Below, in pieces: positions 2,974-33,172 of a stretch of 35,514 bases of DNA (position 1 is the first letter of the stretch; every line of letters begins with the position of its first letter). The notes beneath the pieces were generated by a model. That model worked only from the letters and a program-made list of their open reading frames with translations, was not told the DNA's origin and ran no database searches. Origin of the DNA: Thermoproteota archaeon (lineage in GTDB: Archaea > Korarchaeota > Korarchaeia > Korarchaeales > Korarchaeaceae); NCBI GenBank assembly GCA_027491395.1, contig JAOZFI010000053.1, forward strand, positions 1-35,514. Reading direction: 5' to 3'. The translations under genes and the position numbers were made by a program.

Positions 2974-4485
2974 TTGGGTGATAGCACGAAAGCTAGCTGG
3001 AAGCTACTAGCTATTGTAATCACATTTTCAGTGTTGCTCATCCCCCCGCCCCACCTGAGCGCTCAAGATACCTTGACATGGTACGATCCATTGGAGGAGC
3101 CGCAACTACCTCAGCTGGATGTGAAGGCCATGCACATATCTTGGAACGGCAACATCACACTTGCCTTCTATTTCTACGGAACTCCCTCAGCGGAGAACTT
3201 CACCGTGATAGGCAATGTGTATCTGGACAGGCTCGTGGAGGGTGAGGGCGTACCCGAGGGTGACGTCAAGGGAGCGGACTACAGGCTGGTGTTCTTCGTG
3301 AACCCCAACCAGACGGACTGCTCGGTCCAGAGGTTCAACTCACTTAAGAATGGATGGGACAGACTTGCGGCCGCCTGCTGGGTGAGGATGGAGGAGGAGA
3401 GGGTGATACTCACCACCCCCAATGTGACGGCGGCCTTTCCCAAGGGAGAATTCGGTGTCAAGGCGTACATGTGGATGGTTGAGAGGGACGACTTCGACTG
3501 GGTGACCTACAAGCTGGAGAAGGAGGGAGCAGCGAGAATAGACGGAAAACTGGGGGACTACGGTGCCCCTACAATACTGGACTCCGTTGGGGATGCCGAC
3601 AGGGTAGCCGATTACAAGGAACTTTACGTTAAGGACGACTTTTACAGGATTTACTTCGCGATAGTACCTGTGGATGGGCTAGGCTGCAATCTAAGGGGTT
3701 ACGGAGCGAGGCTGGAGAGGTTCTTCAATGTATATGTGGATGCTGATCTAAACAGGAGCAACGGGCATGAGCTGTGGGAGAGCTACCTTTACAGGTGCAA
3801 TCTGACGGGCAGGACATGGGAGAGGCTCCCTACCAAAGCCATATACGTGTCAAATCCTGCCCTTAGGAGGAAGGGCTTGATGGTAGGTGATGTGTTCGAG
3901 TCCTACGTGTACTTGGGTCCGGTGAGAAAGCAGATAGTCAATCACGGCAGGCAACTCGGCCTAAGGGCCAGCGTGGTTACTAGGCTTATGGACGCGATCC
4001 CAGATAGCGGGTGGCTCATCTACCGCAGGGACCACCTCTCTCCAAGCTCCTTCGAGGTGACCGGTCCTGATGTTGACATTAGCATGAATAAGGATCTCTC
4101 AGACAGGTTCAAGGCCTTTGGAAAAGCATCGGGGATCTACAGGATAACATTGGGAGGTCCAGCGGTCAATCCATCCTACGGCGAGCCGGTAAAATTCGTT
4201 AAAGGAGAGAACGGCCTCTTCTATGGAGTTGAAGTCGGCAACACGACCTACTGGGCGTCCTACGGGCGCAGGGACTTCGCGGTAGTCGGAATCCACGAGG
4301 CTGGAGAGGGGATTTACATCACCGCAGCGGGAGTGACTAGGTTCGGGACCAGAGCCGCCTTGATGTGGCTCAGCGAGAACATGCCCCTATTGAAAGAGGG
4401 AACATACATCCTGAGCTGGATCGATGATGGAGACGGCAAGGTGGATATCAGCGAGATAGGGGTGGTAGCAGTTGAAGGATCCTAG
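2974..4485 (+). CDS. secreted protein with C-terminal calcium-loop-like motif, family unknown
   Basis: The reading frame is open from 2821, but that start would overlap the divergent neighbour and put about 50 non-secretory residues first. From the TTG at 2974 the protein begins with a good signal peptide: K/W, then LLAIVITFSVLLIP, then a likely cleavage after LSAQ. The mature part of about 470 residues is beta-rich, aromatic and has several N-glycosylation sequons (for example NIT, NFT, NVT, NLT), as expected for an exported archaeal protein. Near the C-terminus DDGDGKVDISE resembles an EF-hand or dockerin calcium loop, and FFNVYVDADLNRSNG is a second Asp/Asn-rich loop. No enzyme family was recognised; a cell-surface or carbohydrate-associated role is only a guess. 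The last 14 bp overlap the following gene. Confidence 0.7.
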   Translation: MGDSTKASWKLLAIVITFSVLLIPPPHLSAQDTLTWYDPLEEPQLPQLDVKAMHISWNGNITLAFYFYGTPSAENFTVIGNVYLDRLVEGEGVPEGDVKGADYRLVFFVNPNQTDCSVQRFNSLKNGWDRLAAACWVRMEEERVILTTPNVTAAFPKGEFGVKAYMWMVERDDFDWVTYKLEKEGAARIDGKLGDYGAPTILDSVGDADRVADYKELYVKDDFYRIYFAIVPVDGLGCNLRGYGARLERFFNVYVDADLNRSNGHELWESYLYRCNLTGRTWERLPTKAIYVSNPALRRKGLMVGDVFESYVYLGPVRKQIVNHGRQLGLRASVVTRLMDAIPDSGWLIYRRDHLSPSSFEVTGPDVDISMNKDLSDRFKAFGKASGIYRITLGGPAVNPSYGEPVKFVKGENGLFYGVEVGNTTYWASYGRRDFAVVGIHEAGEGIYITAAGVTRFGTRAALMWLSENMPLLKEGTYILSWIDDGDGKVDISEIGVVAVEGS

Positions 4486-29306: not shown

Positions 29307-29624
29307 TTAGGCTATCTTGATTCCTCTCCGCCTCGCTTCAGAGAGTAGCTCCGAGGACTCATTCACGATGATTATATCGGGAGGGAGGCCGGCATCCAGC
29401 AGATTTCTGATCTCCTCATCTAGCAGGGAGAAATAATCTACCTTCTCCAAGGGAACTATCACTATATCCACATCGCTCTCTCCAGGAATGACGCAGCCCT
29501 CCACGAGCGAGCCCACCACGTATGCCTCCTTTACTAAGCCCGATAGTTTCCTCCCTATCCTCTCGATTACCTCCCTCAAATCTTCCAAGGAGACAGTCCT
29601 CACCGGATTAGTCATCTTCCACAA
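29307..29624 (-). CDS. MNT-type minimal nucleotidyltransferase (MntA-like antitoxin)
   Basis: A roughly 100-aa stand-alone nucleotidyltransferase. The motif is GSLVEGCVIPGESDVDI: the G38-S39 pair and Asp51 and Asp53, the metal-binding catalytic pair. In MNT/HEPN toxin-antitoxin systems such proteins inactivate the HEPN ribonuclease by AMPylation. The TTG at 29624 gives the longest protein; the internal ATG at 29615 overlaps the stop of the upstream frame and is likelier. Immediately upstream on the same strand is only the C-terminal remnant of a HEPN-like frame, so this antitoxin appears to be an orphan. Confidence 0.78.
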   Translation of the reverse strand: MWKMTNPVRTVSLEDLREVIERIGRKLSGLVKEAYVVGSLVEGCVIPGESDVDIVIVPLEKVDYFSLLDEEIRNLLDAGLPPDIIIVNESSELLSEARRRGIKIA

Positions 29625-29782
29625 CCCTCCGCAGCTCCCTTATTATCCCCTCCATTAGATCCAGATCTTCTTCGGACACTGATGGGATGACCCCGTAATC
29701 CCCTCTTTCCCCTCACAGGGTATGCCTTGGAAATTCCCTTCACAAGCTCTACCTCGGGCCCCAACTCTTCTCTCCTTTGATT
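29608..29782 (-). pseudogene. truncated, frameshifted HEPN-like remnant
   Basis: Reading the minus strand upstream of the MNT gene gives REELGPEVELVKGISKAYPV in one frame, then RGDYGVIPSVSEEDLDLM and IIRELRRVVEDD in another, ending at TAA just after the MNT start. The second part looks like the C-terminal helices of HEPN proteins, which often read DYG-x-IPS-x-EE before the last helix. Only about 55 codons survive, in two frames, with an in-frame stop upstream and A+T-rich DNA beyond. The HEPN identity relies on this pattern and on position before an MNT gene. Confidence 0.5.
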
Positions 29783-29838
29783 CTAGAGTTTATTTAAAAT
29801 TTGTTACTTTATCATCACGTAAATTATTAACGATAATG

Positions 29839-29846
29839 TTTATAAG
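29839..29846 (+). promoter_or_regulatory. TATA-like box of the broken beta-propeller gene
   Basis: TTTATAAG is centred about 27 bp before the ATG at 29870. The spacing fits a leaderless transcript, so this 5' end looks like that of a real gene. Confidence 0.5.
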
Positions 29847-29869
29847 ATGATTAAATTATTATAATTATA

Positions 29870-32078
29870 ATGATCAGAATAATGATCAGAGATATAAGAA
29901 GAATTGTCATCCAAAGAATGTGGATTTTGCTGACCTCTCTTCTCCTTGTTGTATCATTAGTTATTCCTTTAGCCGTCTCAGTAATAGCGTCGGACTATTC
30001 CTATGATATGTCAATAAGTCTCACGAGAAGTGATCTATGTTAGAGTAAATTACCTTGCTTTAATGTACAGGGTTCTAGTACAAACAATATATCTTCCTCT
30101 CTAAGAAATATCTACATAATTCCCGAATCGGAGATGCTGCTAATGAAAAAAGCTTTCAAGAAAAACTTTATGAGTTTAAGCAGAGAATATGTTAAGTATA
30201 TGAACAGCTATAGCACTAAACACTTAAATATATCAAATATAGACGGGTGGGAGTACGGGTTCCCACCGGTATTCTTTACTGCCGAAGAATGGCATATCCT
30301 TATGAATAGAGTAGTTACTCTAGACAGAGAGTTAAGGACATTACTAAGGATGTGCAACATGTCCTTCAAGATCAACATATTAATACCTCCAACGGCTAAT
30401 TCGTCTTATATAATCGCTAGTAGTAAGATCATTAAAAAATACGCCGAAAAACTTGAAAATATTAAGCTAAGTATGATATTTATTATCGACTTAACAGGCA
30501 AAATCAACAGTCTATCGTTGGAGGATACGTACCATGTTCTCAGGGAAGTGTCGGAGATAACAAATATTTCCCTGCAATTGGCCTCGCGCGCGAGGTCACA
30601 ACGGTACCGTTGAGTGGGTGTACGGGAAAGAGAGCCTCAGTGCAGCCCACGCAGACGTAGATGGAGACAGAGAGGGAGAACTCCTAGTATCGACTCCATC
30701 CAGTCTAGAGATCCTCGATAGCACCAGATATCGATTGGAGGTGGAAACCCATCCTTACGAGATCGTCGTCAGGTTAGAGCAAGACATAACACCCCTGATA
30801 GCACAGGAGAGGAGGATCTTCATCAAATCCACAGCCACCACCTTCTACAGAATCAACGATTCCGAAGTCGCCCTGAACGCCCTCCCCGGCAGGTATGAGA
30901 TCGGCTTGATGGTAGGTAATTGGGTCGCGGCCACGCAAAGAGTGGTCGTTCCTTGGGCTCCGACTATGGAGTGGCCGAGCCCCTCAGGATCCGTTTCGAG
31001 GAGTTTCTTGGTGAGGCACGCCACGGGCAAGGGGCTAAGCATCGGACGTGAGAAGACTCTCTTTCCCGACTACACGCTGACTCTCCTCATTGGAGATGTT
31101 GATGGGGATGGTAGCCCCGATCTAGTCCTCATGAACGGTAAGGAGATGCAGATATTCGATATGAGCGGGAGAGTCGTTAAAGTCCAGCTGGACAGCGAAG
31201 CTAGAGGGGGAATCATAGCTGATCTGAATGGGGATGGCATCTCGGAAGTCCTAGTAGTGGAGAGAAGAAAGGTTCAGGCATTCTCCCACCTTACCAACCT
31301 ATGGGACTTCAAAGCTGAGGATGGTGAGGAGTTCACCGGAGCGGCGATAACGCCCGTAGGGAGGGAGAGATGGCTGATCATCACTGCAAGATCGAGCGTC
31401 TACTCCCTCACACCTGGAGGTACCTTGAAGTGGAAGCTGAGCCTAAGTGGGGAGCTGTCGCCACCGGCCATGTCAGATATCGACAACGACGGTGAATTTG
31501 AGGCTGTGGTAGCCGTTAATCTAGGTAATAAGTCCGAGATCCTAGCAGTGGATGAAGGCGGAACTCCCAGCCCGATTATCTCGATGAACTCAAGTGTGAG
31601 GGAGATCTTCGTTTCCGATATTGGAGGCGACGGCACCAAGGATCTCGTAATGCTGTGCAATTCCGGCTCATACATCAAATCAGGTGAAAACATTGTTCTA
31701 ATTCTACCGGATGCCTATCCACCGGCAATAGCCGACATTGACGGAGATTCGAGGATAGATGTAGTAGCGTATTCCAGAGAGGGCATCCTCATGATAGTCA
31801 CAGCTGAGGGCGTCAGGAAGTTTGACTTAGGGTTCGAAGACGCCTCTCCACCCGTAGTAGTCGATCTAAAGAATTGAAGCTCTAAAATTCTATTGGGTGA
31901 CTACCAAGGACGCTTACACTTAATCGACCCAGATGGGGCTGCAATATCTACGATTAAGGTATCTCGCTTTCCCGTGAGGGGAGTCTATCCCGTGGACTTG
32001 GATTCGGACGGTCGCTTGGAAGTGGTAATCACAGATCTCGAGGGAATTCACGTGCTCTCCTCAGGCGATCTTCCCTAA
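29870..32078 (+). pseudogene. broken gene: membrane-anchored FG-GAP/beta-propeller surface protein
   Basis: Four pieces line up into one long reading. (1) 29870-30043: 57 codons with an N-terminal transmembrane helix (MWILLTSLLLVVSLVIPLAV), ending in a TAG at 30041. (2) The same frame continues to 30613 without another stop and has no recognised fold. (3) After a shift of frame within 30561-30613, a 419-codon frame (GTG at 30618, open from 30561) carries FG-GAP repeats such as GDVDGDGSPDLV, ADLNGDGISEVL, SDIDNDGEFEAV and ADIDGDSRIDVV, ending at TGA 31875. (4) The same frame continues past that TGA as SSKILLGDYQGRLHLIDPDG to 32078. Calcium-binding D-x-D-x-D-G loops mark integrin-like propellers on cell surfaces. 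Pieces 1-2 are A+T-rich, 3-4 are not, so this may be a chimera. Three lesions make a pseudogene the simplest reading; recoding is unproven. Confidence 0.7.
30582..30595. repeat. perfect 14-bp palindrome at a composition junction
   Basis: CCTCGCGCGCGAGG reads the same on both strands. A+T-rich DNA lies to its left and ordinary-composition DNA to its right, and the reading frame changes in the same place. Confidence 0.75.
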
Positions 32079-32420
32079 GACGGTTCTAATCATCGCTTCG
32101 AAATCTCTCTGAATCCGTTTCACTATGAATCTCATGATGGAGACCATGCCAGGTGACCTTTCCAGCAGCACCTCTCCCTCCAGTACTTTCGCCCTGAACC
32201 AGGGCGGGGCGTAATCTATTACCCTCACATCCACGGGAATCCCTACGATGCGACTTAGCTCATCCGATAAGGTCTCCTCGTAACAAGGCAGCTCCTCGTA
32301 AGGGACTCTGCCACCAGTAAGAACTCCGACATCGATATCCCTGAACACGGGCGATGAGATGAAGCTCCCGTAGATGAGGACAGCTAGGATCTCCTCCCTA
32401 GGTAAGAGGGCCTCTAGCAA
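32061..32420 (-). CDS. second MNT-type nucleotidyltransferase
   Basis: A 119-aa nucleotidyltransferase with the motif YGSFISSPVFRDIDVGVL: G18-S19, then D28 and D30. It would be the antitoxin (MntA) partner of the HEPN gene just upstream. The TTG at 32420 is the first standard start, but the same frame runs on upstream for about 20 codons to a TGA near 32500. Those codons (RFTFYRLSDSEKGEVKHK) look like part of the fold, with no ATG, GTG or TTG in them. Either a rare start codon is used or the 5' end is damaged. The C-terminal region after residue 70 is helical and of unknown role. Its 3' end overlaps the pseudogene frame by 18 bp, convergently. Confidence 0.75.
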   Translation of the reverse strand: MLEALLPREEILAVLIYGSFISSPVFRDIDVGVLTGGRVPYEELPCYEETLSDELSRIVGIPVDVRVIDYAPPWFRAKVLEGEVLLERSPGMVSIMRFIVKRIQRDFEAMIRTVLGKIA

Positions 32421-32484
32421 CTTATGCTTAACTTCCCCTTTCTCAGAATCGGAAAGCCTGTAGAAGGTGAACCTCTGCCTGTCC

Positions 32485-32899
32485 TCACGGATCCTTAGAG
32501 ATATAAGCCCTCACCTCCTCCAAGAATGATTCTATCGCCTCTATTCCGCCACCTCTTGCTTCTTCATACAACCTGAGATTATCCACCTCCCAGTACCTGT
32601 GAACCAGCATGTTCCTCAGAGATGCGAGTCTCTCCACTTTAGTACCCACGGATGGTCTCACGACTCCCTTCCTGTATAATTCGCTGAAGGACTCCCTATA
32701 CCCTCTGGGTAGCACCCCGAAATCCCTCTCTAAATATAGAAACAGCGATTATTATGAGGAGATACCTCAACGTGTACGGGTTTCTCCTATCCGACAGATA
32801 TTCATCGATGGAGAGCCCACATATTTCCTTTAGACTGGACAAGTAATCTGAAACCTCTTCGATTAGCCTCAGAACCATGTTCCTATAAATATTTGTCAT
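32485..32899 (-). pseudogene. frameshifted HEPN (HepT/DUF86-like) toxin gene
   Basis: Two overlapping frames together make one HepT-like protein of about 137 aa. The first (from ATG 32899) has EEVSDYLSSLKEICGLSIDEYL and PYTLRYLLIIIA, matching the family N-terminus. The second has RGYRESFSELYRKGVV, and the catalytic R-x4-6-H motif RNMLVHRYWEVDN. The shift is one base and falls within about 32730-32750, next to ATAATAATC. The second frame has stops just upstream of that point and the first stops at 32696. Loss of function, a sequencing error or programmed frameshifting are possible. The MNT antitoxin follows on the same strand. Confidence 0.75.
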
Positions 32900-33172
32900 C
32901 TCACGTCGGACGAATGTGGGAGATTTCCTTTAAAAGACATAGGATTCTCCATCCCGCCGTATTGACTGGATGCCGGGTTCGATGCCAAGATCTATAGAGC
33001 ATTCCCTAGCAAGGGCACTATAGCTTTCGAATTCTGCTGGAGTTACGTGCAAATATAGAGCCTTTAAACGTCGAACTGAGTGCTCGACTATGCACGAACT
33101 CTTTTAGGGATGCGCTCCAAACCCCCCATCACTCTTCCAAGGACAAGGTTCACGGGCGGACGGCCTTCCGGG
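32900..33172. other. intergenic region without recognised gene
   Basis: A 273-bp stretch between the HEPN gene and the end of the MmgE/PrpD gene. It contains a T-loop-like GGTTCGATGCC, but no tRNA fold can be built around it, and a weak GTCGA/TCGAC hairpin near 33069-33087. A TTTAAA stretch near 32931 could be the HEPN promoter on the minus strand. Confidence 0.5.

Follow-up and report, generated by a model that had tools for sequence, protein, structure and literature searches.

Prokaryotic pseudogenes are often failed horizontally acquired genes and are enriched for atypical composition (Liu et al. 2004, PMC522871). Recoding occurs in archaea too; one case is the −1 frameshifting of a fucosidase gene from Sulfolobus (PMC8211752). 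The locus considered here lies in a window of 35,514 nt (the whole stretch of DNA that was analysed) from the metagenome-assembled genome of a Thermoproteota archaeon. It was originally predicted to be one long FG-GAP surface-protein frame broken by a TAG, a frameshift and a TGA. The TAG, the TGA and the change of frame exist; however, they are spread over two genes, designated A and B, and the locus is very probably a non-functional remnant of these two decayed, adjacent accessory genes, fused by a deletion. The genome of the window (G000) was compared with a sister genome, G001, and with G008, which has 97% DNA identity to the window. The features of the locus are as follows.

29838–29869, + strand: putative TATA box (TTTATAA), spaced from the gene A ATG as in a leaderless promoter, read from the sequence and conserved in G001
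29870–30040, + strand: N-terminal part of gene A (57 codons up to the TAG), including a hydrophobic membrane/signal segment; the homologue in G001 continues past this point with a CAG
30041–30043, + strand: TAG, premature stop found in the window only; CAG in G001, site deleted in G008
30044–30584, + strand: remaining 5′ portion of gene A, AT-rich and matching no known domain; aa identity with G001 is 89%
30585–30592, no strand: deletion junction, an 8-bp filler CGCGCGCG between genes A and B, from comparison with G001
30593–31874, + strand: 3′ portion of gene B with FG-GAP-type β-propeller repeats (frame of 30618–31877), from Pfam and identity to G001
31875–31877, + strand: TGA, premature stop found in the window only; GAA in G001, GGA in G008
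31878–32078, + strand: final 66 codons of gene B, then the original TAA stop that G001 and G008 have too

The ORF at 29870–30043 is closed by the TAG at 30041, and translation shows the same phase to be open for 189 further codons, where 190 had been predicted, up to a TGA at 30611–30613. The second frame is open at 30618–31874 (from before 30618) and is closed by the TGA at 31875–31877, past which 66 codons in phase, where 67 had been predicted, lead to a TAA at 32076–32078. Given the local base composition, the chance of open runs of 189 and 419 codons is about 8e-7 and 2e-9 per run, so these runs are not accidental. The 66-codon run is by itself unremarkable (chance 0.04 with the same composition), but its homology shows it to be true gene sequence.

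The first part of the locus does not belong to an FG-GAP protein, since the region at 29780–30584 is AT-rich, has no Pfam match and belongs to the other gene. The GC content at about 29780–30584 is 0.22–0.40, against 0.50–0.60 around it, and rises again to 0.49–0.60 afterwards. The window keeps the first ~715 bp of gene A relative to G001, where the homologue of this 5′ part is at C6:183583–184122. Gene A in G001 is AT-rich and encodes an N-terminal membrane segment and a Cys-rich C-terminus; its single-sequence fold is poor (pLDDT 35), being confident only for the N-terminal helix. The product is probably membrane-anchored or secreted. Searches of gene A against Pfam, NCBIfam and PHROG gave no match, and no PDB entry is significantly related; homologues were found in just 4 of 61 genomes, all from the same genus. 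No intact ortholog of gene A was found at this locus, the G001 copy carrying a TGA, and an intact but divergent paralogue of 398 aa with a Cys-rich C-terminus, belonging to no known family, is present in G009. The leaderless promoter spacing proposed for the locus is plausible: the putative TTTATAA element precedes the ATG at 29870 by 24–30 nt and is also present in G001, where the promoter and start region differs only in lacking a 12-bp tandem duplication that the window carries at its start codon.

Gene B in G001 is an 885-aa FG-GAP β-propeller ORF with an N-terminal membrane segment, and thus an intact ortholog of this gene exists in a close relative. The fragment in the window has 90% aa identity to it, and the G001 ORF starts ~1.2 kb upstream of the matching part; the last ~490 codons are kept in the window and the first ~390 (~44%) are missing. 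In the Pfam search, 30618–31874 exceeds the FG-GAP_3 cut-off (56 bits vs 26.9, E 6e-15), and 30044–30610 has no FG-GAP match, so that FG-GAP sequence begins only after the junction. The FG-GAP score of gene B is 124 bits in G001 vs 56 bits for the window fragment. The AT-rich block of G001 (L029 2800–4600) spans gene A completely and extends ~100 codons into gene B, over its anchor and linker, after which the GC content inside gene B jumps to 0.55. Because the AT-rich block ends, and GC rises, inside gene B, the intact gene itself looks composite from its base composition.

In G001, genes A and B follow one another as separate neighbours, ~64 bp apart. According to BLASTN, the window is collinear with G001 up to 30584 (position 3624 of the G001 locus) and resumes at ~30593 (~5463), so the comparison with the relatives establishes a deletion: 1,838 bp of the G001 arrangement are absent, comprising the 3′ half of A, the intergenic DNA and approximately the first 390 codons of B. 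The GC step coincides with the junction. Eight bases, CGCGCGCG (30585–30592), separate the ends of the two genes; this filler is an 8-bp (CG)4 and forms, with its neighbours, a perfect 14-bp palindrome, CCTCGCGCGCGAGG, at 30582–30595. When searched for in the other fetched loci, the junction palindrome CTCGCGCGCGAG was found only in four loci that represent the same place. No inverted or direct repeats flank the junction. The deleted 1.84 kb was not found elsewhere in the window's 98%-complete assembly; the same search finds the segment in G001 and G008, these matches serving as a positive control. On this alignment, the third break, which had been read as a frameshift at 30561–30613, is an out-of-frame A–B fusion produced by the 1.84-kb deletion.

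Among the window, G001 and G008, the TAG, the TGA and the 1.84-kb deletion occur in the window only. The relatives carry lesions of their own. Gene A of G001 has a TGA where the window reads TGG. In G008, most of gene A is gone owing to another, independent deletion, ~1.25 kb long and bounded by a 4-bp microhomology (TATC), and gene B of G008 contains one +1 and two −1 single-base indels as well as a TAG. No lesion at the A–B locus is common to the window and either relative. A gene A paralogue elsewhere in the genome is frameshifted by one inserted A, common to G000 and G008, and is broken in G001 by lesions that differ from those in G000 and G008; it is this paralogue that is intact, with 398 aa, in G009. 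Inactivation has therefore taken place several times, and the aligned sequences indicate that the A–B locus is decaying independently in three related species. The gene A paralogue loci are listed below.

L008, 1405–2479 (G000:C43): gene A paralogue
L034, 2071–3013: gene A paralogue
L033, 2623–3788: gene A paralogue
L032, 452–1648: gene A paralogue

In G001, genes A and B are flanked by dppC, an oligopeptide permease gene, on one side and by an MmgE/PrpD gene on the other. The interval between these flanking genes contains A–B and MNT/HepT genes in G000, G001 and G008 (in G008 without most of A), is empty in G004 (just ~170 bp) and contains an MNT/HepT stretch without A–B in G015; judged from these gene orders, it is an accessory site, variable in the genus. 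The downstream MmgE/PrpD gene is intact, as are the upstream permease genes dppB and dppC (dN/dS ~0.02). The gene A family adjoins toxin–antitoxin-type modules, which are MNT/HepT-like in G000, G001 and G008 and VapBC-like in G009. The modules, called by ORF reading and, for the window, also by Pfam, are at the following positions.

Window, 29307–29624 and 32061–32899: toxin–antitoxin-type modules by gene A
L008, 2874–3275: toxin–antitoxin-type module by a gene A family member
L031, 693–1330 and 3158–3809: toxin–antitoxin-type modules by a gene A family member

The MNT/HepT copies corresponding to 32061–32899 are seemingly partly degenerate in G001. The MNT/HepT stretch of G015 (L040 1245–2185) has 90% DNA identity to window 32025–32945, whereas the flanking dppC and MmgE genes of G015 are just 71–72% identical to those of the window; because of this difference, the stretch is likely to have reached G015 by recent transfer. 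It includes the 3′-terminal ~50 bp of gene B, and this remnant may be a trace of a gene B once present in G015.

Gene B has a dN/dS of 0.20 between the window and G001, with 41 nonsynonymous and 69 synonymous changes on the long branch, which indicates constraint in the past. The count of substitutions that the original prediction had proposed gives 7 nonsynonymous and 4 synonymous changes in gene B on the window's own branch. With the window and G008 taken together against the long branch, the Fisher p is 0.11, or 0.04 with stops counted, few changes separating the window from G008; taken alone, this points only weakly to relaxed constraint on gene B in the window's lineage.

In the window's lineage, the deletion took away the 3′ half of A together with ~44% of B at its start, leaving the two remnants fused in different frames; separately, single-base substitutions turned one codon of each gene into a stop, TAG in A and TGA in B. 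The underlying cause may have been that selection was relaxed on this pair of genes, which would be dispensable and were possibly acquired horizontally, and both genes have presumably lost their function in the window. The original prediction of a recently dead gene was correct as to the outcome; what remains is not one gene with three point breaks but the 5′ half of A followed by the 3′ half of B, its downstream neighbour. It is unlikely that the repeated independent inactivation of the A–B pair and the A paralogue was favoured by selection, for example as an escape from viruses binding their products, instead of reflecting neutral decay.

Shorter functional genes might persist in place of the original ones, namely a truncated A, a truncated FG-GAP protein starting from GTG 30618 and a small 3′ ORF. 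The ORFs at 30134–30613 and 30618–31877 are sizeable, and translation of the open stretches that separate the lesions could give shorter proteins. Separate genes ending naturally at each stop, an arrangement that the original prediction had considered, occur in neither relative, however; neither the membrane segment nor the first propeller repeats are left in the B fragment, and the changes on its own branch are mostly nonsynonymous. Functional persistence of this kind is highly improbable. Assembly or sequencing error at the three sites is conceivable because the compared genomes are draft assemblies, but a 1.84-kb deletion with an 8-bp filler in a syntenic contig, accompanied by two substitutions, is unlike a base-calling error. 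Each side of the junction corresponds to one end of a single G001 locus, which makes a chimeric join unlikely, and the sister species have other, independent lesions there; error is scarcely to be credited.

A surface protein that is switched reversibly, through phase variation or cassettes, would be consistent with the surface-type product and the independent inactivation of one locus in three species. With no silent copy of the deleted segment elsewhere in the 98%-complete assembly, no recombination repeats at the junction flanks, and no homopolymer or short tandem repeat at the TAG or TGA, this explanation is barely tenable for the locus. Programmed recoding would yield one long protein if TAG were read as pyrrolysine, TGA as selenocysteine and the frame shifted in a programmed way; it accounts for the coding sense preserved past every break, but its probability is negligible: neither stop occurs outside the window's lineage, which leaves recoding without a conserved site, the shift site is a deletion junction of two different genes, and neither PylS (20 bits vs a cut-off of 178) nor tRNA-Sec (best 40.9 vs 47) exceeds its cut-off in the window's genome.

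The locus can thereby be struck from the candidates for recoding or phase variation in archaea, and the different lesions in one accessory locus and a paralogue, in three close species, provide an example of parallel gene loss. Like the Sulfolobus α-fucosidase gene fucA1, which employs −1 programmed frameshifting (PMC8211752), the window has an archaeal coding region distributed over two frames; unlike fucA1, it has no conserved shift site, and its frame change is a gene–gene deletion junction. Gene B resembles FG-GAP β-propeller proteins (PF13517, PF01839) in scoring well above the cut-off and differs from them, in the window, in lacking approximately the first 390 codons and in having an in-frame TGA. 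The probably dead gene pair is an ordinary finding: like the prokaryotic pseudogenes described previously (PMC522871), the copies in the window have stops, frame disruption, atypical composition and a patchy distribution, and they differ from those pseudogenes in that a deletion has, in addition, joined the two adjacent genes.
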